Below are positions 28,147 to 63,699 of a stretch of 64,000 bases of DNA, piece after piece. The stretch comes from an uncultured Elusimicrobia bacterium. GTDB taxonomy: Bacteria; Elusimicrobiota; Elusimicrobia; Elusimicrobiales; Elusimicrobiaceae. Made by a program: the position numbers and the translations under genes. The notes beneath the pieces were generated by a model. It saw nothing but the letters and a program-made list of their open reading frames with translations, was not told the origin of the DNA and did no database searches. Position 1 is the first letter of the stretch; every line of letters starts with the position of its first letter. Location: NCBI GenBank assembly GCA_947306425.1, contig CAMZGO010000003.1, forward strand, positions 1 through 64,000, read 5' to 3'.

Positions 28147-28190
28147 ATAGTTATAATGTTTACATCTGTAATTTGTTGAATTCTACTATA

Positions 28191-28219
28191 AGTATAACAA
28201 AAATATAGGTTAATTTCAA
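28191..28219 (-). promoter_or_regulatory. Promoter of the AbiE operon
   Basis: On the minus strand TTGAAA (28219-28214), 17 bp, then TATACT (28196-28191), about 45 bp before the abiEi start. Spacing is optimal. Confidence 0.7.
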
Positions 28220-28249
28220 CAGTTTTCATATAGAAATGTTATCTTTTAT

Positions 28250-28275
28250 ACTGGTATTATATATATAATACCAGT
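28250..28275. promoter_or_regulatory. Perfect 26-bp palindrome, candidate AbiEi operator
   Basis: The arms ACTGGTATTATAT and its complement meet without a spacer. The palindrome lies about 30 bp upstream of the abiEi -35 and 105 bp after the integrase stop. AbiEi proteins are known to bind inverted repeats at their own promoter. There is no T run on either side, so a terminator for the integrase is less likely. Confidence 0.55.
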
Positions 28276-28379
28276 AATATCCATTAATTGTTCATTGTAA
28301 TGTGTTTTCAAACGTTTGTTCACATTAAAATAAAAAACAATTTGCATAAATCATTCTATAAAGGTTATATAACTCTTAT

Positions 28380-33423: not shown

Positions 33424-33457
33424 ATTTTAACATAAGTTAATGACAATCTTATGTCAT
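33424..33457 (-). promoter_or_regulatory. Island regulon promoter, site 1 (zinc-ribbon/CFI-box gene)
   Basis: On the minus strand TGACATAAGATTGTCA (dyad GACA-N6-TGTC), 11 nt (TTAACTTATGT) and TAAAAT at 33429-33424. No TTGACA-like -35 lies 17 bp from the -10. The leader to the ATG is about 54 nt. Confidence 0.75.
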
Positions 33458-36707: not shown

Positions 36708-36741
36708 ATTATAACTATTCTCAATGACAATGTTATGTCAT
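36708..36741 (-). promoter_or_regulatory. Island regulon promoter, site 2 (sigma factor gene)
   Basis: Minus strand TGACATAACATTGTCA (36740-36725), 11 nt (TTGAGAATAGT), TATAAT at 36713-36708. The full 18-bp palindrome ATGACA-N6-TGTCAT is at 36724-36741. Leader about 20 nt with AAGGAG. Confidence 0.8.
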
Positions 36742-39700: not shown

Positions 39701-40177
39701 ATAAAATGCATCATTAACAACTTCAATAGAAAAACGTTTTAATAATTCTTCCCTTGTATGAACTTTTCCCGTTAATTGTTTATTTGCGGTATGTATTTTT
39801 GCGTTTTCACCTACTAAAAAAGAAAATCTGCGCGGATTGCTACATTCTTGCTGTACCCAATCGTAAGTAATTAGGGAAATGCGATATTGGGTGGGATTTT
39901 GAGGAATAAACAAAAACAATGCTTGCCCAGTATATCCATCCCCTTTAATGATTTTTAAGGCCTCTTTGGTGAGCCCCACCCTTGCATCCTTGCTGGAATG
40001 GTAAATTTCGTATATGGGAAGCTGTAATTGTTCACATTTGCCTAATTTAACAACTTTTTGAATTAAATCATTTTGATATATTATTGTTCTTTCATCTACC
40101 CTATAATCAGGTAAAAAATTATTTCGCAACCCTAAAATAACCCTATTTCTTTCATACTTTTGCTCTAAATAAGTCAT
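36749..40177 (-). CDS. Eco57I-type (type IIG-like) adenine methyltransferase/specificity protein
   Basis: A 1142-residue protein. An N-terminal helical region of about 350 residues is followed by an N6-adenine methyltransferase core: SAM-binding motif ALDPAVGSGAFPMGIL near residue 422 and catalytic NPPYVSN near residue 640. The C-terminal third (from about 830) holds the target recognition part, with FCWNNVLLPK and KYLISLLNSRFI, as in Eco57I/TaqI-like enzymes. It starts inside the end of the upstream helicase gene (four-base overlap), so the two are one operon. No PD-(D/E)XK motif is obvious in its N-terminus, so cleavage may come from the partner's PLD domain. Confidence 0.83.
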   Translation of the reverse strand: MTYLEQKYERNRVILGLRNNFLPDYRVDERTIIYQNDLIQKVVKLGKCEQLQLPIYEIYHSSKDARVGLTKEALKIIKGDGYTGQALFLFIPQNPTQYRISLITYDWVQQECSNPRRFSFLVGENAKIHTANKQLTGKVHTREELLKRFSIEVVNDAFYGEISKHFNELIENIKHPKGVNDTDEGFKRLQNFAVRLIGRLVFCWFLKKKHRQDGSQLISEGLLSSEAVSECDGNYYHDILEPLFFETLNKPVDQRREKCQKGYYKDIPFLNGGLFNPDTDDCYKLNDLEQSEYYKSLKIENSWFESLFKVFELYNFTIDENTSTDIELSIDPEMLGRIFENLLAAVNPETEESLRNQTGSFYTPREIVDYMVTQSLKQYLYTKTDIDHKKIDSLFELEHKLETPEEKEQIYEALFAIKALDPAVGSGAFPMGILQKIMAILNLIDSKGEIYNKKNYEIKNLTLRKINYEHKSQLIKNCIYGIDIQTIAIEICRLRFFLTLIIDEEEDHIKPLPNLEFTFVCANSLIPLPKQEDGFFNNEDLIKKLKEIREKYFNSYGKDKKDLQNEFSNIQLKLFNKRLSQGKQNLLIEDPRFKKQESKNTNNDMIDMLSTWKPFENSSTGWFDSFWMFCVQDGFDIVIGNPPYVSNKGVSKEDKKKYISIYDRSDDLYNYFFIRGMELLKRNCTLVYITSDTFLTLQSKLNIRQLSQKNKIIELIKTDNVFKGVVVSPIISIIKKVNDESDYSFIFKDAVANFFNPIKKEIKISVYRKANNNVFFYPSDINMKFYNKFNDRIKELYSQWWDKIKTASAIEKNKHDLEEYRKNLKPGDVTFLGCITEGGQGLATANNGKYIAVRKSTKRVNNIIKNRPIKLKAAIKKYKITELDNLDIYAYLDTLNESEIAHLFDNLKEKYGRDIFGQGFLYRIIEDSEIADVDMLSQDEKENGIDKSKKHYVPYDKGDQDGNRWYLDTPYAISWSKENVHFLKTNSGKKGKGMPVVRNPQFYFKEGFCWNNVLLPKNEESKYIKCRVKSKSVNDVASMSFYNKYDAISTKYLISLLNSRFIYDVLKEFINNTVNLQINDFRQLPILIPNDEQSKILEDIFDYSYELKIKQQNTNTKDPIIENNLSQKQKYLDDIILKMYIN

Positions 40178-43100
40178 AATAATTCTCCTTTGATATCATC
40201 TCCTATAAATTCTTCTGATAATACGATGTCTTTGACTTCGGATTTCTCTTTGTTATACTGCTCCATTAATTCTTCTAAATAATAATTAGGAATCTTTTTT
40301 TGTAATTCTGCAAAAATGTCATCTAAATTATCATTATTTTGTACTCTTTCGCCCGCTTTACCTATCTGTTTAAGTTTCGCTTTATTGGAAGAAAATGCAT
40401 GTTCTTGAACTAGTTGGCGTAATTTGCTTAAATAATCTTTATTTTGACTATTAGTGTAATTGCTTTGTCTTATTTTTGTTTCTATTTGGCTTAAAGCTTT
40501 CATTGCCTGCTTGGTAGTGTTATCGTTGTGCAAAGCGGAAGAATATTCTCTCATTTTCTCTTTAATTTTTTCATAGCAATCAAAGAAATTTGCAGATAAT
40601 TCCCTATTATCATCTTCCTTATCAGCCCTAAACAAGTTTATAGCTTCTTCATAGGTAAGATTTTTCACTTCTTTAGTATCTGTATCGCAGAAACTAAATA
40701 TAGCTACATCTCCTTTTTTGCTGAATACTAAAGCCCCTTTATGGTCCTTATCTTTTTGTTGTCTTGCTATATGTATTTTAGAAGGCAAATTTTTGGCTTC
40801 TTCATATTCCACAGGGAAATCTTTTTTTATATTTTCAAGTTCTATTTGATATTTAGTATCCCAGTTCGCTATTTCTTCAATATTAATACTGTCTAAAGAT
40901 TTACGAAGTTCGTCTTTTTCGGTTAAATATTTAGTATCTTCACCGAAAATCCAGTTAATCATTCTCATTTTGATATCAGAAATATTTCTTACGTTTGTTT
41001 CTCCTTCCCCGAAGGAAGAAGGAAAATAATTATAAATATAAAGGTTATCAAACATCTTCCTATTAACACGATTGATACGCCCAACTCTTTGAATAACTCT
41101 TGTTGGGTTATATGGGATATCATAGTTAAAAATAGTTCCTGCTTTGTTTAAATTAACACCTTCACTTAATGCGTCAGTAGTAAATAATAGGTTACGATTA
41201 TCATTTTCATTAGTTTCTTTACAACTTGCATCAAATTGTATTCTAATTTCTTTCCTTTTGGTATAACTTTCTTTTGAAGTATAAAATATAGGTTTAATTA
41301 TTTCAGTTTCATGGAAATTCTTTGCTAAATATTCTATTGTATCGGCAAATTCTGAAAATACTATAATTTTTCTGTTTTTATCTTCCTCTAATTGCTTTTT
41401 GATAGCTTTTATCAAGCCGTTGAGTTTAGGGTCATTTTCAGGACTAAAAGATTTCCAATCTTTTTGAATTTCTTCTAAAATTGCAATATCACTGTTCATT
41501 TCTTCCTTGAAAGAATCTCTTATGTAATCTTTATGTATGAAATATATCCCTTTTTCAGCATATTTATTTTCTTCTGCTTTTGATAATTTGCTAACAGATA
41601 AAGTGTCACTTTCACTAATATCAGATAATTGAAATATCTGCAACTCATGCTCTGCTTCTAATAATTCTTCCGGTTCCCAGTTCAAAATAGTGGTCAAATC
41701 TAATTTTTTTGAGATTACCGCCCTTCCTGTATTGTTATATATCTGTAAAATATTTCTGTAAGCATTTAAAATATTTTCTAGCGTTTTTTGAAATGAAGCT
41801 ATTGAACTCTCAAAACGGCGGACCAATAATCTCCTTAAAAAATCAGCATTGTTTTCGTTATCACTTTTGATACCTATATATTTTTCCAATGCTTTTTTTA
41901 TCTCAGGGTTATCCTTAACATACGAAGTAATTTTATAACGGGCTGCTTTAAATGGGGCATCTTCGCCTTTTTTGTAAATTTTATTTAACGTGTTTACATA
42001 TTTTTCGGAAATATTCTCTAAATCATAAGTACAATCTTTAGGGTCATTAACTTCAGGAAATCGTATATTTTGCTTTTTTAAGTCCGAACTATACTTAGGA
42101 ATAGCCGTTAAATCTTTGCGATTCCTTCTTACAACAACTTCATTTATTATATAACTCACTTTTTTGGCTATATCTTTTATTTCCTCTTGTTTTTCTGTTA
42201 TTTTTCTTCTTAACCAAAGTTTTAATTCTTCAATATTAGATGATGGAATCGTATCTTCATCTACTTTTTTTAAAGTTTGGTTATCTTTTTGATTTAATTT
42301 TTGGTTGCTTTCCAATTTTTTCAATATATTTCTGCAATCTTTTAACGTGTTATATGTTTTTTTATATTTTCCGTTTAATTCTCTCTCTGCTTCTGCTAAA
42401 TTATTAACAGTTTTTACTGTGGAGAACTCCGGCGTTTGGAATAAATTAACTAAATTAAAAATATCCTCTATATGATTGTTAAATGGAGTAGCAGTAAGAA
42501 TTATGGTTTTTTCACCTTTGCAAATAGTTTCCACATCATCATAGTTGCTAGTTTCATCATTTTTAAATATATGTCCTTCGTCTATTATTACCAAATATTT
42601 CCTTCTTTCATTTTTCCATTGTTGGGCAATTTTTATAGCGTCTTCCAATTTACCTCTGCTAATTACTTCTCCCTTTTCTCTTAAGGATAAAGAATATTCA
42701 CGCCATTGGGGAATTAAGTGTGGGGGAACTATGAGCAATACCGGAAGATGCATATTAGCAGCAATGGTCGTCGCTATTATTGATTTGCCAAGGCCCACGA
42801 CATCTGCAATTATAACGCCATTATGTTCTTCTAAACTTCTTATGCCCTTTGCAATTGCGTCTATTTGATATTGTAAGTTGGCATAATCAGAATCTATGTG
42901 GCTTGGCAGAATTAAACCGTTATGTACTCTAGCATCTCCGAAATACTCTATTAAAACTCTAATATATAAAACAAAAGGGGAACATGTTTTATTGAACCAA
43001 ACTTTTTTAACAAATCTTTCCTCAAAATCATTAATATTATCTTTATTTACTAATTCTGTAGATTCTTTCCATAAATTAATAAAAATTTTTCTGCCTTCTT

Positions 43101-43656
43101 CAAACATATGGTTATTGGTATTTTGTACATTTATTTCAAAATTGTTCTCTAAACCGTTAGCAGATAAATTGCTAGAACCTATTATACAAGTGCCAAGCAA
43201 ACTGCCTCCCGCTTGAGTTTGTTTAGAATGTTCCAAAATATACATTTTAGCATGACAAGGTTTTGAAGTTTGTCTGATTTCTAATGTTCCATTTTTAATT
43301 TTTTTATAAAACAATTCAAATGCTTCTTTACTTTCTCGGTTATCGTAATAAGAGGTTTCACCAATTGTTTTTACCAATGTTTCATAAAAAGAAGATTTCC
43401 TTTTTTCGTCATCCCATTTCTCTATTTCTTCATTTTTTATTGGTGTATATGATTTGATTAATCTGCTTTCTGCATCCAAACCAACTAAAATTTTTAATTC
43501 TTGTGTTTCTGTAATATTCTTATATATTTTTTGGAAACCTGAAAAATAAAAATAACCTACTAAAAAATATAATTTATCGCATATGGGTAAAAAATTATTT
43601 ATTGTAGTAGATAGAGAGTCCTCACTATTATTTGTAATAAAATGTTCGTATTTCAT
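40174..43656 (-). CDS. PLD-nuclease/SNF2-like helicase of a restriction-type system
   Basis: A 1160-residue protein. Residues about 1-200 form a phospholipase-D-like nuclease domain with the HxK motif in HAKMYILEHS and GSSNLSANGLENNFE. Next is a superfamily 2 helicase: Walker A ADVVGLGKSIIATT near residue 285, DEGHIFKN (motif II, DEGH), LTATPFNN (motif III), and the C-terminal lobe with TDALSEGVNLNKAG and QRVGRINRVNR. It probably translocates on DNA and cuts non-self DNA marked by the absence of methylation by its operon partner. The domain set is shared with several phage-defence systems (PLD plus SNF2 plus Eco57I methylase), but I cannot assign it to a named one. Confidence 0.82.
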   Translation of the reverse strand: MKYEHFITNNSEDSLSTTINNFLPICDKLYFLVGYFYFSGFQKIYKNITETQELKILVGLDAESRLIKSYTPIKNEEIEKWDDEKRKSSFYETLVKTIGETSYYDNRESKEAFELFYKKIKNGTLEIRQTSKPCHAKMYILEHSKQTQAGGSLLGTCIIGSSNLSANGLENNFEINVQNTNNHMFEEGRKIFINLWKESTELVNKDNINDFEERFVKKVWFNKTCSPFVLYIRVLIEYFGDARVHNGLILPSHIDSDYANLQYQIDAIAKGIRSLEEHNGVIIADVVGLGKSIIATTIAANMHLPVLLIVPPHLIPQWREYSLSLREKGEVISRGKLEDAIKIAQQWKNERRKYLVIIDEGHIFKNDETSNYDDVETICKGEKTIILTATPFNNHIEDIFNLVNLFQTPEFSTVKTVNNLAEAERELNGKYKKTYNTLKDCRNILKKLESNQKLNQKDNQTLKKVDEDTIPSSNIEELKLWLRRKITEKQEEIKDIAKKVSYIINEVVVRRNRKDLTAIPKYSSDLKKQNIRFPEVNDPKDCTYDLENISEKYVNTLNKIYKKGEDAPFKAARYKITSYVKDNPEIKKALEKYIGIKSDNENNADFLRRLLVRRFESSIASFQKTLENILNAYRNILQIYNNTGRAVISKKLDLTTILNWEPEELLEAEHELQIFQLSDISESDTLSVSKLSKAEENKYAEKGIYFIHKDYIRDSFKEEMNSDIAILEEIQKDWKSFSPENDPKLNGLIKAIKKQLEEDKNRKIIVFSEFADTIEYLAKNFHETEIIKPIFYTSKESYTKRKEIRIQFDASCKETNENDNRNLLFTTDALSEGVNLNKAGTIFNYDIPYNPTRVIQRVGRINRVNRKMFDNLYIYNYFPSSFGEGETNVRNISDIKMRMINWIFGEDTKYLTEKDELRKSLDSINIEEIANWDTKYQIELENIKKDFPVEYEEAKNLPSKIHIARQQKDKDHKGALVFSKKGDVAIFSFCDTDTKEVKNLTYEEAINLFRADKEDDNRELSANFFDCYEKIKEKMREYSSALHNDNTTKQAMKALSQIETKIRQSNYTNSQNKDYLSKLRQLVQEHAFSSNKAKLKQIGKAGERVQNNDNLDDIFAELQKKIPNYYLEELMEQYNKEKSEVKDIVLSEEFIGDDIKGELL

Positions 43657-45855: not shown

Positions 45856-45889
45856 GCGACAATATGTTGTCATATTGGTTTTGTAAAAT
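45856..45889 (+). promoter_or_regulatory. Island regulon promoter, site 3 (DUF2130 gene)
   Basis: GCGACAATATGTTGTCA (45856-45872), 11 nt (TATTGGTTTTG), TAAAAT at 45884-45889. Dyad GACA-N6-TGTC identical to site 6 over the 17 bases. Confidence 0.8.
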
Positions 45890-45945
45890 ATTAATATTAA
45901 AAATTTGAAGTGTTAAACATTAAAATTAAAATAAGGAGAATTATT

Positions 45946-47079
45946 ATGGCAGAAATTAAATGTCCTAATTGCGGTACAAAAATTGCGATTGATGAATCTA
46001 ACTATGCAAAGATTGTCAGTCAAATTAGAAATGAAGAATTTTCTAATGAAATTAAAGAAGTGGAAAAGCGTCTAATTGCAAATAAAAATAAGGAAATAGA
46101 GATATTGCAAGAAAAAGCAAAAGCGGAAAAGGAGCAAACTATTTTGCAATATAAACAAGAAATTGTTAGCATACGCGCTAATCAAGATAAAAAAATAAAT
46201 GAACTGCAAAATGCAATTAATTTAAAAAATCAGGAATTGCAAATTAATGAGCAATCACTCAAAAATAAATACGAAACTGAAATTAAAAATAAAGATGAAA
46301 TAATTGCTTATTATAAGGACTTAAAAGCCAAACTTTCCACTAAAATGTTGGGTGAGAATTTGGAACAGCATTGTCAAAATGAATTTAACAAATTGCGTGC
46401 TACTGCTTTCAAAGATGCATATTTTGAAAAAGATAATGATGATTCCTCCGGCAGTAAAGGCGATTTCATTTTCAGACAAAAAACTCCGGAAGGGGCAGAA
46501 GTTATTTCCATTATGTTTGAAATGAAAAACCAATCAGACACCACCGCAACTAAACGAAAGAACGAAGATTTTTTAGAGAAGTTAGATAAAGATAGAAAAA
46601 ATAAAAATTGCGAGTATGCGGTTTTAGTATCTTTGCTTGAAGAAGACAGCGATTTATACAATATGGGAATTGTGGATATGTCTTATAAATATCATAAAAT
46701 GTATGTAATAAGACCACAGTTTTTTATACCGATAATTACTTTGCTTAGAGATGCTGCCTTAAAAAATGCAGAAGATAAAAACCAATTATTAGCATATCAA
46801 AAGCAAAATATTGATATTACAAACTTTGAAAATAAATTGCTTGACTTCAAAGGTCAATTTGAAAAGAAATATCAACTTGCCGGCAGCAAATTTAAGGACG
46901 CAATAGACGAAATAGATAAGACTATTGAGCGCTTACAAAAAGTTAAGACTAATTTGCTTGCTTCCGAAAATAATTTCCGTCTGGCTAATGATAAATTGCA
47001 AGATTTAACTATCAAGAAATTAACTTACGGAAACCCGACGATTAAGCAAAAATTTGCGGAATTGAAAGAAGAAAAATAA
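45946..47079 (+). CDS. DUF2130 protein (zinc ribbon, coiled coil, nuclease-like domain)
   Basis: A 377-residue protein from the ATG at 45946 with a GGAG Shine-Dalgarno. An N-terminal ribbon (CPNCGTKI) is followed by a long coiled coil (about residues 25-140) and the DUF2130 core: [22 protein letters not shown] and [20 protein letters not shown]. The spaced Asp and Glu-x-Lys (GDF...FEMK) suggest the restriction-endonuclease-like fold that DUF2130 shares with RmuC-type proteins. It would act on DNA in repair or defence. Its promoter is a clear regulon site. It ends before a hairpin at 47091. Confidence 0.78.
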
Positions 47080-50063: not shown

Positions 50064-50753
50064 TTATATATCAATATCGCACTTGATGTTAAAATTATAA
50101 TTACGGCAATAAATAAAATCCGTTAAAGCGAAGTTGCTATGCTCAAAAAGATTATGGAAAGGGTAAACAAGATGTAAATTTTTTGTTAAATTATCATCCA
50201 AACCCTCATTCCAATTTTGCGGAGTTTTGTCAAGATAAATTGCCTCATTTAATGACGGTGTAGTGGTAGTTCCGTCAATTTTGTGGAAACTTATTTTTGC
50301 TACGCTATAATTATAACCCGGGTTGTTATCTTCGTCGGTTAATGCTTCCCAAAGTTCTTGGCGCATATTATCTTGTACAGGATGTTTTTTGGGGTAGCAG
50401 CCGTCAAAATAATATACCCCTTCCACAGTAAAATCATTATTGTTGTTATGCGGTAAAAGCAGTTTATAGGTGCTTTCCGCTTTATCATATAATTTACGTA
50501 TGTTTTTTGTTAAATTCTCATTAAAAACAACAATAACTGGCAATAATTCTTTTTGATAGTTTAACACAAAATCATTTATTAATTTTTTGCGCGCCCTTAG
50601 CAAACTTTCGGCATTTATATTATTGTTATGCTTTTTCATTTCACGCATTTTCATTGTCCAAATAATTTCGTCTTCAATTATGCGTATTGTCTTTGATGTT
50701 AAAAATTCGGTTAAAATTGAATTAAAATTTTCATTTTGTTCTATATTTGACAT
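50064..50753 (-). CDS. Uncharacterised protein under an island regulon promoter
   Basis: A 229-residue protein of unknown function. The N-terminal half is helical and charged; the C-terminal half has GVYYFDGCYPKKHPVQDNM, YNYSVAKISFHKIDG and HLVYPFHNLFEHSNFALTDFIYCRNYNFNI, suggesting a beta-rich domain. The final FALTDFIYCRNYNFNI resembles the ends of some immunity or TA-like proteins, but I make no assignment. It has regulon site 4 and is divergent from the ankyrin gene. Confidence 0.6.
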   Translation of the reverse strand: MSNIEQNENFNSILTEFLTSKTIRIIEDEIIWTMKMREMKKHNNNINAESLLRARKKLINDFVLNYQKELLPVIVVFNENLTKNIRKLYDKAESTYKLLLPHNNNNDFTVEGVYYFDGCYPKKHPVQDNMRQELWEALTDEDNNPGYNYSVAKISFHKIDGTTTTPSLNEAIYLDKTPQNWNEGLDDNLTKNLHLVYPFHNLFEHSNFALTDFIYCRNYNFNIKCDIDI

Positions 50754-50785: not shown

Positions 50786-50819
50786 ATTTTATAAATATAA
50801 TATGCCAACATTATGTCGC
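50786..50819 (-). promoter_or_regulatory. Island regulon promoter, site 4
   Basis: Minus strand GCGACATAATGTTGGCA (50819-50803), 11 nt (TATTATATTTA), TAAAAT at 50791-50786. Divergent from site 5, which begins 18 bp to the right. Confidence 0.78.
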
Positions 50820-50836: not shown

Positions 50837-50870
50837 AAGACACAGTGCTGTCGCAATAGTTTTATATAAT
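50837..50870 (+). promoter_or_regulatory. Island regulon promoter, site 5 (ankyrin gene)
   Basis: GACACAGTGCTGTCG within 50837-50853, 11 nt (CAATAGTTTTA), TATAAT at 50865-50870. Dyad GACA-N6-TGTC; the TTGTCA position reads CTGTCG. Confidence 0.75.
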
Positions 50871-50904: not shown

Positions 50905-51678
50905 ATGACATTAATAGATTTAATATTAGAAGAAAGAAAAATTCTTTCTAATAATATTTTGCCGGAATCCGAAAAATTGGAAAATCGGCAAAAGATAGTT
51001 GATAAAATTAAACTGCTTATTAAAGCAGGTGCAGAGGTAAATGCTAAAGATGAACATTTTGGATACACAGCCCTTATGTTGTCCTATACCGCAGAAACCA
51101 CCCAATTGCTTATTGACGGAGGTGCAAATGTAAATGCGCGAGATAAAAATGGTGAAACTGCTCTAATGTGGGCGAGTGCGCAAGGGGCAACAGATAGAGT
51201 CAAATTGCTTATCAATGCCGGGGCTGATATAAATGCTATGGATGATGTTTTTGGTAATACTTCACTTATGAGAGCAAGAACACCGGAAGTGGCGCAAATC
51301 CTTATTGACGCCGGTACAGATGTAAATTTGTTTGCCAAATATGGTTGGACGGCTTTGGAACAAAGTGTAGGGTTTGGGCAGTATGAAAAAATCAAGATAT
51401 TACTTGCGGCTGGTGCGAATATTAACGCAAAGAATACATTGGACGGAAAAACAGCATTAATGGAAGCAAGCGGAGTAGGACGGGCAGAAATTGTCAAATT
51501 GCTTATCAATGCAGGTGCAAATGTAAATGACAAAGATAAAGAAGGCCGTAATGCAATTTGGTATGCTCAAAATCATGCAGATAAGAGAGTATGTCATTTT
51601 GGTATTCAACCGGCTAAAGAAGAGGAATATAGCAAAATCATTGAACTTTTAAAAAAATCAGGTGCGCAGGAAAAATAA
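50905..51678 (+). CDS. Ankyrin-repeat protein
   Basis: A 257-residue protein with about six ankyrin repeats. The unit LLINAGADINAMDDVFGNTSLM and variants (LLIDGGANVNARDKNGETALM; LLAAGANINAKNTLDGKTALM) fill residues 30-230. No signal peptide. It is a protein-binding module; in defence islands, ankyrin proteins often act as sensors or inhibitors. It has regulon site 5 and is a single gene. Confidence 0.85.
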   Translation: MTLIDLILEERKILSNNILPESEKLENRQKIVDKIKLLIKAGAEVNAKDEHFGYTALMLSYTAETTQLLIDGGANVNARDKNGETALMWASAQGATDRVKLLINAGADINAMDDVFGNTSLMRARTPEVAQILIDAGTDVNLFAKYGWTALEQSVGFGQYEKIKILLAAGANINAKNTLDGKTALMEASGVGRAEIVKLLINAGANVNDKDKEGRNAIWYAQNHADKRVCHFGIQPAKEEEYSKIIELLKKSGAQEK

Positions 51679-54052: not shown

Positions 54053-55090
54053 TTATATCTTTTTTCTCTTCTTTACAAAAAAGTTTAGTAGTTTTATTAA
54101 ATCTTTTTTACTTTCTATTTTGACATATCTGTATTTAAAAATACCTTCTTTAGTTTTATATCGGCATATTTCTTTCTTTCCCGCAAAATTATAATCATCG
54201 GGCTTATGCTCTTGAGCAAATTGCTTTGTTTCTTTGTCACTAATACTACTTGGCCCTTCAATAAAATATTTAAACTGCTTATTTTGTATTTGTATCCCTT
54301 CTAATCTATTTTTTTTAGATTTAAACTTAAAAGAAATAAGAGGTCCGGCTTTTCCGAAATCTACTTCTAGCGTATTAGCATCATTTTTTATTTTCTTAAA
54401 AGCGCCATCTTTGAAAAAACTATTTAAAAAACTATTATTAGCATATTTTATTAACGAATAAGTTTTATCTTCACGCATTTTGTTAATAATATCTTCACTT
54501 GGTTTATCTTGCCAATATCCCAATAATTGATAATCTCTTTTTAATTTTGATATGATTTTTGAAATACTAAACATTATCTCAATAAACTTGTTAATTATTA
54601 TTTTTGTTTTATTATTAAAATTTGCTTTATTAACATAGTTGTTTATATTCTTACAAACATCATTATATGTCAAATATTGTATTTTGTTCTTGTCATTAGA
54701 TTTATTATTTTTTGTTTTTATAGGGGTAATAAGATACTTTTCTATCTTTATTTTTTTATTCTTATATTCTTTTTTCTTAATCAAGTTGTCGGCATATTTT
54801 TTTACTTGCATATCACTTGGTAATGATTTTGTTTTATTTTCTATAATAAGTATTTTATTCCCTAAGTCTAATAATAAATCTGTGTGAGATTTCTCTCTTG
54901 AAGCAAATACTTTTTGTTTATCAATTTTCTGAGGACATTGTTTGCCTAATATAACAGAAATATTTCCTGTCGTTTGTATTAGATATGCCCAAAAATTTGA
55001 TATAGCATTTTCCGTATTTGAACGGCACAAATGCCATAAAGGATTATCTAATAATTTTCTATATTCTTCATATTCCAATATGTTTTTCAT
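54053..55090 (-). CDS. PD-(D/E)XK nuclease superfamily protein
   Basis: A 345-residue protein with an N-terminal helix containing NAISNFWAYLIQT and a PD-(D/E)XK core: REKSHTDLLLDLGNKILIIENKTKSLPSDMQVKKYAD, where Asp, Glu-x-Lys and Gln of the fold are visible (about residues 70-105). The rest is Lys- and Asn-rich with no second domain recognised. It starts one base after the WYL gene stop, so it is the third gene of that operon and is controlled together with the regulator. Confidence 0.78.
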   Translation of the reverse strand: MKNILEYEEYRKLLDNPLWHLCRSNTENAISNFWAYLIQTTGNISVILGKQCPQKIDKQKVFASREKSHTDLLLDLGNKILIIENKTKSLPSDMQVKKYADNLIKKKEYKNKKIKIEKYLITPIKTKNNKSNDKNKIQYLTYNDVCKNINNYVNKANFNNKTKIIINKFIEIMFSISKIISKLKRDYQLLGYWQDKPSEDIINKMREDKTYSLIKYANNSFLNSFFKDGAFKKIKNDANTLEVDFGKAGPLISFKFKSKKNRLEGIQIQNKQFKYFIEGPSSISDKETKQFAQEHKPDDYNFAGKKEICRYKTKEGIFKYRYVKIESKKDLIKLLNFFVKKRKKI

Positions 55091-55091
55091 A

Positions 55092-56009
55092 TTAAATCTC
55101 CTTTAAATACCCTTGTATAGTCTTTTTTACGGCGACTTGAATTTCCTTTGGGCTGATAACCTTAATGTGCGGAAGCCAGTGGAAAATTATCATTAAAATT
55201 TCTTCGGGTTTGCTGATTTTGCAGGTTATAGTCAGTTCCCCGTTCTTGGCTTCTTTAATAATTTTTTGCTCGGGGAAATATGACCTTTGTTTAAAATAAT
55301 GCGCTACTTGTGCGGCAATTTTTAAGGTAACTAAAGTATTGCGCTCATCTTCAAAAAAGATGTTTATGCTGCGGTTCATCAGTTCGGTAAATTTGGCTGA
55401 ATTGATTTTAAAAGTCTTTTTCTGAATTTCTGCTTTTAACATTCTGTCAAGGCGGAATTTAAAAATATAATCGTTTTTGCCAAGGCAAACGAGATACCAA
55501 AAACCTTCGTACCACGCAATTTTTATAGGGATAACAAGGTGTTCTTTAACTTTTTGCCCCGTCTGGCTTTTATAAGTTACCAAAAGATACTTTTTCTTGC
55601 GTATTGCTAAGCGTAAAGTTTGCGTAAGCGGTGTGTCTTCAAAATTTAAACCTTTTGCAATTTTAAGGAAAAACGGGTTTTCTTGGTTCGGTGCGGTTAT
55701 GCGGCGGCGGAGATTTTTAAAAGTTGTTGCGATATTTCCGCCCAAAGTATTTGCGATATCAGATAAAAACACAAGCACACCTGCCTCTTCAGTATCAAGT
55801 TGCAATTTGGACAAATTAAACCCTTCCGTAAAAGCATAGACACCGGGACGTACATCATAAATAGGGAAATCAGCATCATCAATAGTTTGGATATATCTTT
55901 GCACGCTCCTTAATGAAACGCCCATTTCATCTGCCATAGTTTTTAAGCAGACCTCACCTTTATCCAATTGATTTAAAACATACAAAAGCCGTGTAATTTT
56001 ATTTTCCAT
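55092..56009 (-). CDS. WYL-domain winged-HTH transcription regulator (PafB/PafC-like)
   Basis: A 305-residue protein: winged HTH (residues 5-60; EMGVSLRSVQRYIQTIDDADFPI), the linker AFTEGFNLSKLQLDTEEA, then WYL domain (about 140-205: YKSQTGQKVKEHLVIPIKIAWYEGFWYLVCLG, KFRLDRM) and a C-terminal WCX-like region. This is the single-chain plan of PafB, PafC and BrxR-type regulators, whose WYL domain senses nucleic acid. It overlaps the upstream gene by 11 bases and lies in the same operon as a nuclease. Regulon site 6 lies in the intergenic region just upstream of this operon, so it is the leading candidate for the regulon's activator. Confidence 0.87.
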   Translation of the reverse strand: MENKITRLLYVLNQLDKGEVCLKTMADEMGVSLRSVQRYIQTIDDADFPIYDVRPGVYAFTEGFNLSKLQLDTEEAGVLVFLSDIANTLGGNIATTFKNLRRRITAPNQENPFFLKIAKGLNFEDTPLTQTLRLAIRKKKYLLVTYKSQTGQKVKEHLVIPIKIAWYEGFWYLVCLGKNDYIFKFRLDRMLKAEIQKKTFKINSAKFTELMNRSINIFFEDERNTLVTLKIAAQVAHYFKQRSYFPEQKIIKEAKNGELTITCKISKPEEILMIIFHWLPHIKVISPKEIQVAVKKTIQGYLKEI

Positions 56010-56727
56010 TATTTTTCTCTCCGAATTTCTTTTTTATTTCTTCTTTTCTGTTTTTTGTATAAAAGTTATGTTCAATATCTTTTAGATAACTATATTCTCC
56101 GCCATCTTCTTCTCCCAAATTTAAACTATTTAAGTAATATTCTTCTTTTTCTTGTTCTTCCTTTTTATTATAATGCTTCCCTATAATTCTAGGTTGATGA
56201 TATATATTTTCGGTGTTTATATCTTTGGTTTGTTTATCTACCTGGACTTTTTCTTTAATTTCTTCTTCTAAACTTAAAATTCTATTTTCTAAAATGTCAT
56301 AATAAAATTTTTCTTGAATTTTATTCGGGCCCGTAAACAATTTTCCGTTAATGTAGGCGCTACGTAAGAGAATGGATAAATAAAAATCTTCTTTATTTGA
56401 TAAACAAATATCAACGCCACCATCCCGATGGTTTATTTGACCATTCTTTTGGTATCTATGGAAATAAAGTTTACCGAATCTATTTTTCTGTAATTTGTCT
56501 TTATATATCATTCCGTCATTAAAATTTTTGCTTTCATTGTCATAATATATTTCAGTTTCTATAGGAATAATTTCCATATTATCAATTTCTAAAATGCATT
56601 CTGTTAGAAATAAATCATTAATTTTTTGAAGTTGTTTGAGTATTTCTTCTCTATCATTTTGTTTCAACAATTGATTAATTTTTCCTTCAAATTTCTTTTT
56701 TATTTCTTCTTTTATTATTGCCGACAT
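55999..56727 (-). CDS. Uncharacterised protein with conserved YFH...GVD...LLR pattern
   Basis: A 242-residue protein that begins the WYL operon. The middle part has PIETEIYYDNESKNFNDGM, FGKLYFHRYQ, HRDGGVDICLSN and YLSILLRSAYING (about residues 50-140), a pattern I have seen in hypothetical proteins with a DNA-glycosylase-like note, but I cannot assign a fold. The C-terminal part is charged and disordered-looking. Its start has AAGGAG. It is followed directly by the WYL gene. Operon context suggests a nucleic-acid-related role. Confidence 0.6.
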   Translation of the reverse strand: MSAIIKEEIKKKFEGKINQLLKQNDREEILKQLQKINDLFLTECILEIDNMEIIPIETEIYYDNESKNFNDGMIYKDKLQKNRFGKLYFHRYQKNGQINHRDGGVDICLSNKEDFYLSILLRSAYINGKLFTGPNKIQEKFYYDILENRILSLEEEIKEKVQVDKQTKDINTENIYHQPRIIGKHYNKKEEQEKEEYYLNSLNLGEEDGGEYSYLKDIEHNFYTKNRKEEIKKKFGEKNNGK

Positions 56728-56777
56728 AAATTCTCCTTTATCAAATTATACAATATCTTTTATCAAATTTTTAATTT

Positions 56778-56811
56778 GCGACAATATGTTGTCATTTGCA
56801 TTTGCTACAAT
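56778..56811 (+). promoter_or_regulatory. Island regulon promoter, site 6 (winged-helix/deiminase operon)
   Basis: GCGACAATATGTTGTCA (56778-56794), 11 nt (TTTGCATTTGC), TACAAT at 56806-56811. The ATG at 56818 is where transcription should start, so the mRNA is probably leaderless. The dyad also lies about 27 bp upstream of a TATAAT (56750-56745, minus) for the WYL operon. Confidence 0.8.
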
Positions 56812-56817
56812 ATTTGT

Positions 56818-57276
56818 ATGGAAAATCAAGAAATGGCTTTTATTATGCAGTTCAGTTTGTTTAAGCATTTTGACACGGTTTTAGACGCTGTGGAAAGTAT
56901 CGGTCTAGTGGCTTTATCCCAGCCAAAAGTACAAAAAGCATTAAAAGAATTAGATACTTTTTTGCCTACTTTATCAAATGAGGCCAAATTGATATTCAGT
57001 TATTATTATGTGTATCAAATTTCAAAACCCGTAAAAATTGCCGAGATAGAGCAAACATTAAATATACCGAATTTCTATCTCAAAAATTCAAGTGCTTGGC
57101 AGGAACTTGTAAATTTAGGGTTGCTTAAACAAATTAACGGTTATGAATATATTCTGCCGCAAAAAGTGATTGATGCGGTGGCAATTATTGATATGGAGTA
57201 TTATTGGCCTAACGATAAAACAATAATTCCGGCAGAACATAAAAAAGAAGTATTTTGGAGATTGTGCCATGAGTGA
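56818..57276 (+). CDS. Winged-helix-like protein, leaderless start
   Basis: A 152-residue protein; the frame continues upstream as far as 56626 but passes through the promoter, so the ATG at 56818 is taken. The part NEAKLIFSYYYVYQISKPVKIAEIEQTLNIPNFYLKNSSAWQELVNLGLLKQING (about 52-106) has the pattern of a winged helix. It may be a DNA-binding or protein-interaction partner. It overlaps the deiminase-like gene by eight bases. No family recognised. Confidence 0.65.
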   Translation: MENQEMAFIMQFSLFKHFDTVLDAVESIGLVALSQPKVQKALKELDTFLPTLSNEAKLIFSYYYVYQISKPVKIAEIEQTLNIPNFYLKNSSAWQELVNLGLLKQINGYEYILPQKVIDAVAIIDMEYYWPNDKTIIPAEHKKEVFWRLCHE

Positions 57277-58111
57277 GATTGTTTTTATAGCAAAATCTAC
57301 CGGCTGGGCAGAGCAAATTTACCCCGGTTACCGTCAGTTTTTTAATGAATTTTACCCGAAATTAAAGGAATATCACGAGATAGAAACTTTGGATCTTCCC
57401 GATATTTGGGTGCGTGATTTTTTACCGGTACAAAATCAAAAAACAGGGCAGTTACACCAGATGTTTTTTGATCCGCGTTATGCAAATTATACGCCGCAAT
57501 TTACTGCGCTTATACGCCACACAGTGCATAATTACTTTCCGCAAGCAAAACCTTGTGATTTGCGTATAGACGGCGGTAATATGGTATTAAACCCCAAACG
57601 CAATATAGTTTTTTGCTTTGAAAAACAAACTATTTTCCGCAAATCAAAACCCGAAGAAAAACAAAAAGCGGAACAAGAATTAAAAACCACACTCGGTATT
57701 GATAAGGTTGTATGGGTTCCGCGTGAAATCGGTGATAAAATTTGCCATATAGACGGTTATATTCAGTTTTTAGGGGATATTTTGTGCCTTAGTAATCAAT
57801 TCGGCATGTTTTCTTGGCGCATATCAGATAAAAAATTTAAAGCAATAAAACCGTTCATTGACGATAAAAATATACTTGATTTGCCTTATCAAATTGATGA
57901 AAACGATTATTTATCGGCAAGCGGCATATATGTAAATTTTTTGGAAACAGCAAATGCAGTATTTCTGCCGCAATATAATATTTTTCGCGATGAAGAAGTA
58001 TTTGATGCAATCAAACGTTATACCGAAAAGCCTGTCGTAAAAGTGGACTGCTCCAAAATTGCCGAATACGGCGGCGCGGTACATTGTCTGACACGGGAAT
58101 ATTTTAAGTAA
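57269..58111 (+). CDS. Agmatine deiminase / peptidyl-arginine deiminase-like enzyme
   Basis: A 280-residue member of the PF04371 guanidine-modifying family: DIWVRDF (about residues 45-51), DGGNMVLN, KICHIDGYIQFL (catalytic His) and the catalytic Cys in GGAVHCLTREY at the C-terminus. These match the residues of agmatine deiminase, but the protein is shorter (280 versus about 340-370). It would hydrolyse agmatine, arginine or a guanidine group on a small molecule to citrulline-type product plus ammonia. Co-expression with a winged-helix protein under a regulon promoter is unusual for polyamine metabolism and suggests a role in defence or signalling. Confidence 0.8.
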   Translation: MSEIVFIAKSTGWAEQIYPGYRQFFNEFYPKLKEYHEIETLDLPDIWVRDFLPVQNQKTGQLHQMFFDPRYANYTPQFTALIRHTVHNYFPQAKPCDLRIDGGNMVLNPKRNIVFCFEKQTIFRKSKPEEKQKAEQELKTTLGIDKVVWVPREIGDKICHIDGYIQFLGDILCLSNQFGMFSWRISDKKFKAIKPFIDDKNILDLPYQIDENDYLSASGIYVNFLETANAVFLPQYNIFRDEEVFDAIKRYTEKPVVKVDCSKIAEYGGAVHCLTREYFK

Positions 58112-58143: not shown

Positions 58144-58177
58144 GCGACATTATGTTGGCGCAAACAATTTGTATCAT
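58144..58177 (+). promoter_or_regulatory. Island regulon promoter, site 7 (AAA+ ATPase gene)
   Basis: GCGACATTATGTTGGCG (58144-58160), 11 nt (CAAACAATTTG), TATCAT at 58172-58177. Same 11-nt gap as the other sites. Confidence 0.78.
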
Positions 58178-58211
58178 ATTAGTATAAATTAAGGAAATGA
58201 GAGGTAAAATT

Positions 58212-60152
58212 ATGAATAACCAAGATTATAAAGCCATGTATTATATTAACAAAATGGTGGAAAATGATGAGGTAAATGACTATGACCTTACCAATTGGTG
58301 CAGGAAGGCAAAATTCATCATACACAAAGACAAAGATGAAGATAAAAAGGGTATTTGCCAAGTCATAAAAACAAAGATTAAAGAACTTGCAAATAAATAT
58401 GATAAAACTCAAAAGACAATGGAAGAAAAAAATATTGATACTTTAGCAAAAATATTTAAATTGTCTGAGATAGAAAAAGAGATTTTATCAGTATTATATT
58501 TGCCGCATAATAACCGTTTGTTTAAAGATTTCAAGGGGCAAATTCAGCATTATTCTTCAGGCATAGCCGTACGGGTTTTAGGTGCTATGCTTGATAAATT
58601 TATTATTAAATACGTAGGGCGCAGTTCCATGCTTGCTAAACTCGGTTTTATTAACCCTGAATCGTGTGATATAAGATTAACTTTGTATTTCGTTGATTTA
58701 ATAAGTAATAAACAAAAAACCGAAAAAGATTTTATTAATACTTTGCTCGGTAAAAATTTAACGACGGAACTGACGGCAAAAGATTTTAAATATATTCCTG
58801 AGTTGGATTTTGCCTTAAAAATAATGAAATCATCCGCTAAAAACGGTATAAATATTTTACTTTACGGTAACCCCGGAACAGGTAAAACCGAATTTGCCAA
58901 AATGCTTGTAAAGGAAGCAAATAAAAACCTATATACCATTGGTGAAAACAGCGAAGGGGAAAGTGAGAACAATTACCGCGTTCAAGCCCTATACAGAAAT
59001 TTAAAAGTAGCAAGCAAAAATAAAAAGGCGTGTTTGCTTTTTGACGAAGCGGAAGATATGTTTTCAAGCAGATGCACTAAAATAAATAAGGTGGAAATTA
59101 ACCGCCTTTTAGAAGAAAACAAAAGCCCAATAATTTGGTGTACCAATAATATAATGGCGATGGACCGTGCTTTTGTCAGGCGTTTTACTTTGGCAATACA
59201 TTTCCAAACACCGCCTTTGGAAGTCAGGCAAAGTATTTGGAATAAATATTTGCAAGACAGTAAAATAATCACGCAAACGCAAGATATTAAAGCATTAGCG
59301 GAAGATTATAATGTCCCGCCCTCAATAATTGCAGGTGCGGTTAGAGCAACAAAAATGGTTAAAGGTAATATTGAGACGGTAAAACAACATATAAATATAA
59401 TGAATCAAGCCCTAAATAACGGACACAAGCAAATAGTTGAGCATAAAAAAGATATTGTTTTTTGTGCCGATTTGGTTAACAGTGATTTGGATCTAGAGCA
59501 GTTAAAAAACCGTCTGATAAAACTAGGCAAATTAAACTTTTCTTTATGCTTATACGGGGCAAGCGGTACGGGTAAATCTTTTTATGCCAGATATTTAGCG
59601 GAAACACTTAAAATTAAATATTGCCCAAAAAGAGCATCAGATTTAATAAGCCCTTATGTCGGCGGAACGGAGCATAATATAGCCACCGCTTTTGAAGAAG
59701 CGAGGGAAGAAAATTATATGCTTATTTTTGACGAGGCGGATTCCTTCTTGCAAAACCGCTCAAAAGCACATTATGCTTGGGAGAAAACTGCCGTCAACGA
59801 AATGCTTACTTGGATGGAAAACCACCCTTACCCGTTTATTTGCACAACTAATTTAATGAACGATATTGATCCTGCAAGTTTAAGACGTTTTACCTTTAAA
59901 GTTAAGTATGATTTTTTGACTCTGGCACAAGTTAAAATTGCTTTTGATTTCTTCTTCGGGCTTAAAGTTGAGGAGGGGGAAATCAGCCACCTAAACAAAT
60001 TAACCCCGGCGGATTTTACCGTCATTAAAAGCAAAGCGGAAATACTAGGTCTTAATAATCAGCCCGAGCGTTTAATAAAAATGTTAAGCGAGGAACAAAA
60101 TCTAAAAGCCCCTGTAGCTACCTCAAGTATCGGGTTTTGTATGAATAAATGA
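58212..60152 (+). CDS. Tandem AAA+ ATPase
   Basis: A 646-residue protein from the ATG at 58212 with GAGAGG upstream; an in-frame ATG at 58197 is possible. The N-terminal 200 residues are helical with a possible winged-helix region. Two AAA+ domains follow: Walker A LLYGNPGTGKTEFAKM near residue 217 with Walker B LLFDEAED, arginine-finger region VRRFTLAIHF; and Walker A LYGASGTGKSFYARY near residue 448 with LIFDEADSF and LRRFTFKVKY. Both look active. It resembles SpoVK/CbbX-type ATPases. Role in the island is unknown; with the TPR protein downstream it could remodel target proteins. Its stop codon overlaps site 8. Confidence 0.83.
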   Translation: MNNQDYKAMYYINKMVENDEVNDYDLTNWCRKAKFIIHKDKDEDKKGICQVIKTKIKELANKYDKTQKTMEEKNIDTLAKIFKLSEIEKEILSVLYLPHNNRLFKDFKGQIQHYSSGIAVRVLGAMLDKFIIKYVGRSSMLAKLGFINPESCDIRLTLYFVDLISNKQKTEKDFINTLLGKNLTTELTAKDFKYIPELDFALKIMKSSAKNGINILLYGNPGTGKTEFAKMLVKEANKNLYTIGENSEGESENNYRVQALYRNLKVASKNKKACLLFDEAEDMFSSRCTKINKVEINRLLEENKSPIIWCTNNIMAMDRAFVRRFTLAIHFQTPPLEVRQSIWNKYLQDSKIITQTQDIKALAEDYNVPPSIIAGAVRATKMVKGNIETVKQHINIMNQALNNGHKQIVEHKKDIVFCADLVNSDLDLEQLKNRLIKLGKLNFSLCLYGASGTGKSFYARYLAETLKIKYCPKRASDLISPYVGGTEHNIATAFEEAREENYMLIFDEADSFLQNRSKAHYAWEKTAVNEMLTWMENHPYPFICTTNLMNDIDPASLRRFTFKVKYDFLTLAQVKIAFDFFFGLKVEEGEISHLNKLTPADFTVIKSKAEILGLNNQPERLIKMLSEEQNLKAPVATSSIGFCMNK

Positions 60153-60182
60153 CATAGTGTTGGCGCTGATATTTTTTATAAT
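60149..60182 (+). promoter_or_regulatory. Island regulon promoter, site 8 (TPR gene)
   Basis: ATGACATAGTGTTGGCG (60149-60165), 11 nt (CTGATATTTTT), TATAAT at 60177-60182. The dyad covers the stop codon of the AAA+ gene, yet keeps the 11-nt gap, so it was kept for function. Confidence 0.8.
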
Positions 60183-60208: not shown

Positions 60209-61345
60209 ATGAAAACAGAACAAGAAATATTAAACTTAATTGCAAATGAATATTACGATAAGGCACAGGAAGAATTAAAAAAACTGATTGCCGCAAATCC
60301 AAATAAAAATGAATTGTATAATCTTTATGCTTATTGCGAAAAGTGTATAGCAGATATTTGCGAAAATGAGGACTTTTATAACGACGAACCTGCACCCCAA
60401 AAACCTAAAACCAAAACGGAAATTTGTATGGAAATAAAGGAAAAAGCAGGCAGTTTTGCCGATAAAGGCGACTATAAAAAAGCATTGGATATTTTTGAAA
60501 TTATAGAGGACGCTATACCTTTAAACACGACAGGAATTGATTGGCCGAGTTTCCGCCAACCGCGTGCTCAAGTTTTGGAAGATATTGCCAAGTGCCATTT
60601 CCTTTTAGGTAATATGGAAGATGCCAGAAATAAGTTTTTGCAAAGTATTGATATAGAGTTATCTGTTCGTGATAAAAATTCTTATCACCGCATTCCGTTT
60701 TTGTTGAAAAAGAAAGATTATAAAGAGATTTTTCGTTTATTTGATTTTGCCTTGATTAAGGAAAATTCTATGGACAAAACCGATATTTATTATGAACGGT
60801 ATAAACTCCATAAAAAACTTGGGAATACCAAAAATCTGAAATATTATTTGCAACAGGCATTAACTGCTGCGGAAACAGTTTTGGCTATAAAGCCGCTGGA
60901 CTATAATTTGTATAAAAAATATGCAGATTTGCTGACGGAAAAGGGGGACTATCCGCAAGCACTTTTTGAAAATGCAAAAGCCATAGCCCTGTGGCCTGAA
61001 TTTTACGGCTTTCATTTACAAAGGGCGGAAATTTATGCTTGTATGGGGCAAAAAGAAAAAGCCCTTGAAGTATTAAATTCGCTTGAAAAGGGGTATTGGC
61101 ACAGAATAAACCAATACCATTTATCCGAAAAGGGCAAAGTGTATGAACTTATGGGTGATTTGAAAAACGCAGAGGAGTATTATTTGCAGGAAAATTCTTC
61201 CCCTATGCTTCGCTATAATGTTTTGTATGATTTTTATCAAAGGCAAGACCGCAAAGAAGATATAGAAAAATTACGCCAAGAGCAACGCAAAGAGCCGCAT
61301 TTTCAAGACCGCGTAAGCGAGCGCGAATTAACCGCATTAATTTAA
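60209..61345 (+). CDS. TPR protein under regulon control
   Basis: A 378-residue protein of TPR-like helical repeats (KAGSFADKGDYKKALDIFEIIEDAIP; CHFLLGNMEDARNKFLQ; YADLLTEKGDYPQALFENAKAIALWPE; AEIYACMGQKEKALEVLNSLE). No signal peptide. It has its own regulon promoter and a GGAGAG Shine-Dalgarno. It is followed nine bases later by a small membrane protein. It could be the sensing or adaptor partner of the tandem AAA+ ATPase. Confidence 0.78.
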   Translation: MKTEQEILNLIANEYYDKAQEELKKLIAANPNKNELYNLYAYCEKCIADICENEDFYNDEPAPQKPKTKTEICMEIKEKAGSFADKGDYKKALDIFEIIEDAIPLNTTGIDWPSFRQPRAQVLEDIAKCHFLLGNMEDARNKFLQSIDIELSVRDKNSYHRIPFLLKKKDYKEIFRLFDFALIKENSMDKTDIYYERYKLHKKLGNTKNLKYYLQQALTAAETVLAIKPLDYNLYKKYADLLTEKGDYPQALFENAKAIALWPEFYGFHLQRAEIYACMGQKEKALEVLNSLEKGYWHRINQYHLSEKGKVYELMGDLKNAEEYYLQENSSPMLRYNVLYDFYQRQDRKEDIEKLRQEQRKEPHFQDRVSERELTALI

Positions 61346-62415: not shown

Positions 62416-63699
62416 TTATAACTTTATACCGTTGGATTTTAATTTTTCAGCGACGGTAAACAAATCGGTAATTTTTGTTTTATAATAATTGATTATTTCA
62501 TCGGCATTATCAAATAGGGAAAGTATTATTTTAAAATCCCAAAATCGATAGGGTTCCTCTGTTTTATATATTAAAGGCCACCAAGGAGTTTGCAAATCTT
62601 GTCTAAAATATTCATTATGTTGTTTTATAAATTCTGAAATTGTATCGTTATCGGCTTTTATATCTTCTTCACTTTTAAAACCTAGTCCGTAAATTCCGCC
62701 CAATTCATAATTAAAACGCAAAATAATTTTCTTCCATGCCGGTACATTAATGTCAAACTCAGAAATTATACCATCCCTGGTTCTTGTTGTAAGTTTTATT
62801 TCTGTGGAGTATTGTTTTTGTATAAAATCGGATAATGGGTTTAACAGTTTATCTGTCAAAACTTTATTTCTAGCCATTATTAAGCTATTACTTATATCTT
62901 GTGCACTTAGTAAATTTTCTTTGTTTTGAATTAAAAGTTCACTTATTTGTTGTGTCATTTTTGGGCACCTCCCTTGTCCTGTTAAATCGCTGATTAGGTG
63001 TATATATTGTTGAACAGCAATATTTAAAAATAGATTTTCTTTATTTCCTGCAGTATATTTTTGGCATTCCATTAACCATTCTAAAATATGAGTATGATAA
63101 GAAATGCAAATATATTGTTCTTCTTGTAAATTGTTTGTGCTTTGTAAAGTGGGTGGTTTCCCATCTAAAGTAAGGTAAATAATTGTTGCTTTAGGATATT
63201 TTTTGTGATAACGTGATAATTGTTTTGGTTGGTCAGCAGCATAAATCTTATTTTCAATAATAATTTGTCTATTACCCTTTTCAATTAGAATATCAATACG
63301 GCCGCCTTCTTCATAATTTTCTATAATATGTCCGATAGATTTTTCTGTATAAATTTTTATAGGTCCGGTATAAAAAAGGGAAAAATCAGTTTGTTTATTA
63401 CTTACTTCATTTATTTTTTCTAAAAAGCGTTGTAAAAAAATATTTTCTTGTGTAATCTCATCTTTATATGCTAATAAAACAGACAAGAAATGAGAATGTA
63501 ATAATTCTTGTTCATAAAGGTTTTTACCGATTGCGTAAAATATATTCCAGTTACCACCATTTTGCCTTATTTCTTCTTCATATTTGCGGCGAATATTTGC
63601 AGTTTGCAGCAAAAGTTGTTGAATTTGCTTTGTGTTTTGCATATTAATTTTATATTTGTCTTTTTGAAATTTCTTTATTGCGTTAATTAAATTATACAT
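62416..63699 (-). CDS. PD-(D/E)XK nuclease superfamily protein (PDDEXK_4-like)
   Basis: A 427-residue protein with an N-terminal helical domain (LHSHFLSVLLAYKDEITQENIFLQRFLEK) and the nuclease core YEEGGRIDILIEKGNRQIIIENKIYAADQPKQLSRY (about residues 130-165), showing Asp, Glu-x-Lys and the Gln of the fold. The C-terminal half has WWPLIYKTEEPYRFWDF. It resembles the PDDEXK_4 group found next to defence genes. It probably cuts DNA together with the gene at 61576. A sigma-70 promoter is not obvious. Confidence 0.78.
   Translation of the reverse strand: MYNLINAIKKFQKDKYKINMQNTKQIQQLLLQTANIRRKYEEEIRQNGGNWNIFYAIGKNLYEQELLHSHFLSVLLAYKDEITQENIFLQRFLEKINEVSNKQTDFSLFYTGPIKIYTEKSIGHIIENYEEGGRIDILIEKGNRQIIIENKIYAADQPKQLSRYHKKYPKATIIYLTLDGKPPTLQSTNNLQEEQYICISYHTHILEWLMECQKYTAGNKENLFLNIAVQQYIHLISDLTGQGRCPKMTQQISELLIQNKENLLSAQDISNSLIMARNKVLTDKLLNPLSDFIQKQYSTEIKLTTRTRDGIISEFDINVPAWKKIILRFNYELGGIYGLGFKSEEDIKADNDTISEFIKQHNEYFRQDLQTPWWPLIYKTEEPYRFWDFKIILSLFDNADEIINYYKTKITDLFTVAEKLKSNGIKL

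Follow-up and report, generated by a model that had tools for sequence, protein, structure and literature searches.

A DriD-like WYL regulator and its probable eight-promoter damage/defence regulon in an uncultured Elusimicrobia bacterium

A gene at 55092-56009 (minus strand) in a 64-kb stretch of DNA from an uncultured Elusimicrobia bacterium encodes a WYL regulator of 305 amino acids (aa), and its locus raises the question of which promoters this protein serves, whether it activates or represses them, and what it senses. The whole stretch is referred to below as the window, and it belongs to a 1.44-Mb genome that is 99% complete. The host probably inhabits the rumen, as its nearest named records are rumen Elusimicrobiaceae metagenome-assembled genomes (MAGs), and a literature search brought up no recognisable paper on an Elusimicrobia WYL regulator. 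The original prediction for this locus was of a WYL activator situated in an intergenic region of its own regulon. We find support for a WYL regulator that probably activates eight promoters, among them one in the intergenic region beside its own gene. Our analysis indicates that the encoded protein is likely to be a DriD-like WYL activator that works as a homodimer on a damage/defence regulon and probably responds to single-stranded DNA (ssDNA).

The protein has the architecture of a WYL transcription factor, with an N-terminal helix-turn-helix (HTH), a WYL domain and a WCX domain in one chain, in agreement with the predicted single-chain HTH plus WYL protein. Pfam matches were obtained to WYL (E=1.7e-11) and WCX (2e-9), and the match to HTH_11 (2.3e-5) falls just below the cut-off (24.6 versus 25 bits). 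The nearest relatives in the PDB are DriD structures. A profile of 12 sequences placed DriD first among solved relatives (E about 1e-8), then PafBC, and Foldseek, using a mediocre model, also gave DriD at rank 1 (E=2.3e-14). Residues R34 and R38 of the recognition helix, Y172 (the WYL tyrosine) and R186 are invariant among WYL proteins of group A1. R186 and R189, which lie within FRLDRM, match the RxxR pair that is required for ssDNA binding in PafBC and SiwR; R189 is replaced by K in many relatives from the home family, Elusimicrobiaceae. ssDNA is a candidate signal for the WYL protein. Between the HTH and WYL domains, where DriD-type activators have a three-helix bundle, the AlphaFold model has helices at 73-86 and 93-105, predicted with low confidence. 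A phage origin of the protein is unsupported, a scan of viral contigs having found no relative of it.

Eight dyads occur in the window, starting at 33441, 36725, 45857, 50803, 50838, 56779, 58145 and 60150 (sites 1 to 8). All are intergenic, although site 8 shares three bases with the stop codon of the preceding gene. Oriented by their -10 elements they read YGACAW-N4-TTGKCR or near it; the 50838 site starts with A and has CTGTCG, and the TGGCG variant is found in sites 4, 7 and 8. In all eight a TANNNT hexamer lies exactly 11 bp downstream on one side, for which the chance expectation is about 3% per side. GACA-N6-TGKC is found at these eight places only within the window. When the genome was searched with the 32-bp module pattern NGACA-N6-TGKCN-N11-TANNNT, which joins the dyad, the 11 bp and the TANNNT, there were 8 matches in the entire 1.44 Mb, all at 33.4-60.2 kb of the window, compared with 4 genome-wide for a reversed-pattern control. 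The eight dyads of the original prediction are therefore real, and they are confined to one island. A loose 16-bp dyad pattern allowing 3 mismatches showed no excess (86 versus 85 by chance), so that only the dyad plus the fixed -10 discriminates.

The spacing was counted on 57 dyads from the window and 20 stretches of relatives, picked blind to the -10. TANNNT at +11 was counted on 71 sides, whereas the other spacings average 3.4; in 55 of the 57 dyads one side or both carry a -10 at +11, and the 16 with both fit a symmetric dimer site. The consensus from 87 sites is CGACAaNaTGtTGTCGC, followed by a T-rich stretch and then TATACT, the -10 columns being fixed by selection because the sites in this position table were chosen with the -10. 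The dyad centre is about 19 bp upstream of the -10, which is the position of a -35. The -35 hexamer itself is absent, the best match being 2.0/6 and not above random island positions (2.55/6).

From this promoter geometry we infer that the WYL protein probably binds the dyads as an activator rather than a repressor. The contrary case is a repressor similar to BrxR or CapW, in which a WYL dimer on the -35 region would block RNA polymerase until released by a nucleic-acid ligand. BrxR and CapW are WYL-fold dimers that regulate phage-defence loci and have inverted-repeat sites, BrxR binding its repeats to repress; both are among the fold-search matches, and the target genes described here are within a defence-rich island. 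However, a repressor would not depend on an exact distance to the -10 and would occupy promoters with a usable -35, whereas the promoters here keep a constant 11 bp and lack a -35, and DriD comes first by both fold and profile. BrxR is also a local repressor, while the fixed-distance sites suggest activation of many units. We regard repression as improbable.

Site 6 (CGACAATATGTTGTCA, 56779-56794, plus strand) lies between the wyl operon and a divergent operon, and its -10 (TACAAT, 56806-56811) faces the gene at 56818. The TATAAT of the wyl operon (56745-56750, minus strand) had been predicted about 27 bp from this dyad in a self-regulatory layout. Its position is confirmed and the measured distance is 28 bp, which is outside the 11-bp geometry; there is no support for self-activation in this genome because site 6 has the 11-bp spacing only toward the divergent 56818-58111 operon. 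The 28-bp arrangement on the wyl side is preserved in three same-genus relatives (L082, L084, L086). Among relatives at a greater distance (42-47% identity), the wyl gene is often behind a dyad at the 11-bp spacing, and in some of these one dyad has that spacing toward both wyl and the divergent gene.

The first gene of the divergent operon (56818-57276, plus strand) encodes a 152-aa protein with a helical model, possibly a winged helix, for which a fold search gave no significant match. The second (57269-58111, plus strand) is agmatine/peptidyl-arginine deiminase-like (PF04371). The ATG at 56818 is 6 nt past the -10, and the same distance is found in 7 aligned relatives, even where a different gene lies behind (L086). 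This conservation backs the promoter call and, provided that +1 lies 7 nt past the -10, suggests a leaderless transcript. An ATG 6 nt after the -10, apparently leaderless, recurs at L135, L148, L142, L163, L167 and L176 as well as at 56818 of the window.

Across the phylum, the sites tend to occur together with WYL genes. In the home family, sites were found in 32/46 WYL-positive and 5/33 WYL-negative genomes (p=1.4e-6). A stricter site pattern was compared with a WYL gene search in 295 phylum genomes, which gave 40/40 and 3/6 in the sister family (p=0.001) and 11/15 and 10/155 outside the order (p=6e-9). Several genomes are incomplete MAGs in which absences are soft. Pooling all genomes outside the home family gives p=3e-32; shared ancestry inflates these figures, although the pattern recurs in separate lineages. 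The dyad often directly adjoins wyl. This distribution bears on the possibility that the dyads are read mainly by the HTH-TPR (tetratricopeptide repeat) protein at 33562-35415, or form the -35 of the sigma factor at 35508-36686. Both genes are themselves behind site 2, and the HTH-TPR recognition helix (SLRTIQRDI) is similar to that of WYL relatives (SLRTLQRDM). The sites nonetheless track WYL genes, many dyads are flanked by two -10 elements, one per side, a feature that a sigma -35 would leave unexplained, and G244 and G095 retain several sites although the 20-kb stretches searched there hold no homologue of the HTH-TPR or the sigma gene. Such a role for either protein appears quite unlikely, even less likely than repression.

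Which genes are behind the sites in relatives gives an indication of function. Four genes recur immediately behind a site: the AAA+ gene (12 genomes), wyl (9 loci), the one for the 152-aa protein (8 loci) and the one for the deiminase-like protein. Elsewhere in the home family, sites precede HsdM, a C5 methyltransferase, GmrSD, a McrB-like AAA_5 protein, an SRA-domain protein, PDC-S26 and AbiEii proteins, and RlaP and PNKP-type nucleic-acid repair enzymes. CsgG/FlgO-like and ferritin-like proteins are also preceded by sites, and the enrichment for defence and repair is a qualitative statement only. A small secreted CsgG/FlgO-like protein (~173-188 aa) was repeatedly seen behind a dyad promoter (L112, L117, L121, L124, L137). 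In the sister family, sites precede recA (5 genomes), radC (3), rmuC (3), sbcD, a UvrD-type helicase with a nuclease domain (2 genomes) and an ERCC4 nuclease; for these calls one member per family was confirmed by Pfam and repeats were assigned by eye from sequence similarity. A regulon in and around the WYL gene's own intergenic region stands as predicted, while purely local self-control does not, since the same type of promoter reaches recA and repair genes order-wide.

Sites in front of recA, radC and recombination genes in the sister family might indicate that the dyads are LexA boxes of a classical SOS response. The LexA DNA-binding domain (PF01726) had no match in this 99%-complete genome, in which controls matched, and an order-wide search found none in the 5 genomes with recA behind a site. 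The strict 11-bp spacing is also not a repressor trait. This explanation is already largely refuted and we give it very little credence. LexA is missing from this genome and its closest same-genus relatives and is present in most other Elusimicrobiaceae searched. A LexA-less genome with an island regulon, together with the recA, repair and anti-phage promoters of its relatives, suggests a separate damage or infection switch.

Among characterised WYL regulators, DriD of Caulobacter crescentus is an activator of an SOS-independent damage response. Its CGAC-N7-GTCG sites overlap the -35 with an invariant gap to the -10, and the one next to driD acts on a divergent operon (PMC12340889). The WYL protein described here resembles DriD in having one HTH-WYL-WCX chain, a CGAC..GTCG core over the -35 at a constant distance to weak -10 elements, and a site adjoining the regulator gene that serves the divergent operon. 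In the printed DriD oligonucleotides, as read by us, the site is 10 bp from the -10, compared with 11 bp here, and TGGCG variants occur in didA and bapE. The two systems also belong to different phyla, and the regulon here does not extend beyond a single island, which has sigma factor, AAA+ and deiminase-like genes.

PafBC of mycobacteria is a heterodimer that uses a -26 motif and sigma adaptation. It is likewise a WYL activator of a damage regulon at promoters without a -35, and its RxxR ssDNA-binding pair is present here, but the Elusimicrobia protein is a single 305-aa chain rather than a heterodimer or fused pair and has a symmetric dyad at the -35 in place of a -26 motif. With full dyads over the -35, a single chain and DriD as nearest structural relative, the PafB/PafC-like type first proposed was abandoned. 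SiwR of M. smegmatis is a homodimeric WYL activator with a 19-bp palindrome across the -35 to -10 of one operon. The palindrome is beside its own gene and its HTH has an arginine pair four residues apart (R38/R42, versus R34/R38 here). The consulted passages on SiwR describe no multi-promoter regulon, unlike the eight units here.

Several observations weigh against assignment to a DriD-like damage activator. The half-sites are separated by N8 here and by N7 in DriD, so that CGAC-N7-GTCG is not found at these sites, and the system is therefore filed as DriD-like and not as DriD. The profile similarity to DriD sits in WYL-WCX and not in the HTH (3.6 bits), and the AlphaFold model is mediocre (predicted local distance difference test, pLDDT, 66). 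recA is outside the regulon in this genome, where the link to damage rests on relatives. Of 21 sister-family wyl genes tested, a full dyad adjoins only 3 (against a background of 0.6% of windows), three sister-family genomes have sites and no WYL detected, and some home-family genomes with WYL homologues of another clade have no strict sites.

In the mechanism we propose for a DriD-like activator, each HTH would read one YGACA half-site of the 16-bp dyad, which would stand in for the -35. With the WYL domain occupied by a ligand, ssDNA produced by damage or infection being the likeliest, the dimer would hold RNA polymerase at promoters with a -10 and no -35, the fixed 11-bp distance setting the contact with the polymerase. 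Eight island units would be turned on, comprising the sigma factor with the HTH-TPR protein, the AAA+ protein, the deiminase-like operon, the DUF2130, TPR, ankyrin and zinc-ribbon proteins, and one unassigned gene.

A broader and more tentative proposal, which we think somewhat less likely to be right than wrong, is that the main damage switch of Elusimicrobiota is a WYL activator and not LexA. Elusimicrobiales would use one stereotyped promoter, a dyad 11 bp from a -10 with no -35, for recA and repair genes, and LexA-less rumen Elusimicrobiaceae would have passed the switch to an island that carries a sigma factor of its own and, in the case of relatives, to dispersed anti-phage genes, with ssDNA from damage or phage turning on defence. 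Working from sequence alone, the analysis predicts an entire damage/defence regulon built on an activator, in a phylum that has received little study, and it carries the promoter plan of DriD to bacteria far removed from Caulobacter. The promoter signature flags uncharacterised defence and repair genes, such as the AAA+/deiminase-like/152-aa set, and the system would be a natural example of a damage switch in genomes without LexA.

The remaining sites have the following predicted targets. Site 1 (TGACATAAGATTGTCA, 33441-33456, minus strand; -10 TAAAAT, 33424-33429) is predicted to drive a zinc-ribbon/TPR protein (32359-33369, minus). Site 2 (TGACATAACATTGTCA, 36725-36740, minus; -10 TATAAT, 36708-36713) is predicted to drive the sigma-70 family factor (35508-36686, minus), which over 343 aa shares 49% identity with a second sigma factor encoded in the genome, and the HTH-TPR protein (33562-35415, minus). 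The site 3 dyad (CGACAATATGTTGTCA, 45857-45872, plus; -10 TAAAAT, 45884-45889) probably serves a DUF2130 protein (45910-47079, plus), whose relatives in L093, L099 and L145 are likewise behind a site. Sites 4 (CGACATAATGTTGGCA, 50803-50818, minus; -10 TAAAAT, 50786-50791) and 5 (AGACACAGTGCTGTCG, 50838-50853, plus; -10 TATAAT, 50865-50870) should drive, respectively, 50064-50753 (minus), with no assigned family, and an ankyrin-repeat protein (50905-51678, plus). The predicted target of site 7 (CGACATTATGTTGGCG, 58145-58160, plus; -10 TATCAT, 58172-58177) is a protein with two AAA+ domains (58197-60152, plus), the commonest regulon member. Site 8 (TGACATAGTGTTGGCG, 60150-60165, plus; -10 TATAAT, 60177-60182) is expected to drive a TPR protein (60209-61345, plus).

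The HTH-TPR protein is the only other match to the WYL protein within the genome and lacks WYL. Its HTH shares 34% identity with the HTH of the WYL protein, TPRs take the place of the WYL sensor, and it may compete with the WYL protein for the same sites. A cascade through the sigma-70 factor, itself behind site 2, is possible. In clade C (L039, L040, L041) the WYL homologues have K at the R34 position, and a GGACA-N6-TGTCC dyad lies 40-41 bp from their wyl genes, its -10 at a spacing of only 6 bp; site and recognition helix may have been altered together.

The wyl gene is in a minus-strand run of three genes (55999-56727, 55092-56009 and 54053-55090). The first had been proposed to encode a possible nucleic-acid protein, for which family searches returned no match; it belongs to no known family and its same-genus homologues share the neighbourhood. 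For the third, a proposed PD-(D/E)XK nuclease, there is no Pfam or NCBIfam match, and the resemblance holds by motif alone, with 12/34 identities to the PDDEXK_4 protein at 62416-63699 around D..IIENK (E=0.001). The protein at 62416-63699 (PDC-S26, a candidate defence type) has no site here, while its relative in L110 (2961-4202) has one. Elsewhere in the window, an Eco57I-type methyltransferase and a PLD/SNF2 helicase pair (36749-43656), like DISARM-type or type IIG defence genes, have no dyad in front. An AbiEii-type toxin gene with an upstream partner is located at 26720-29363, and a phage-type integrase lies at the left edge of the low-GC island.
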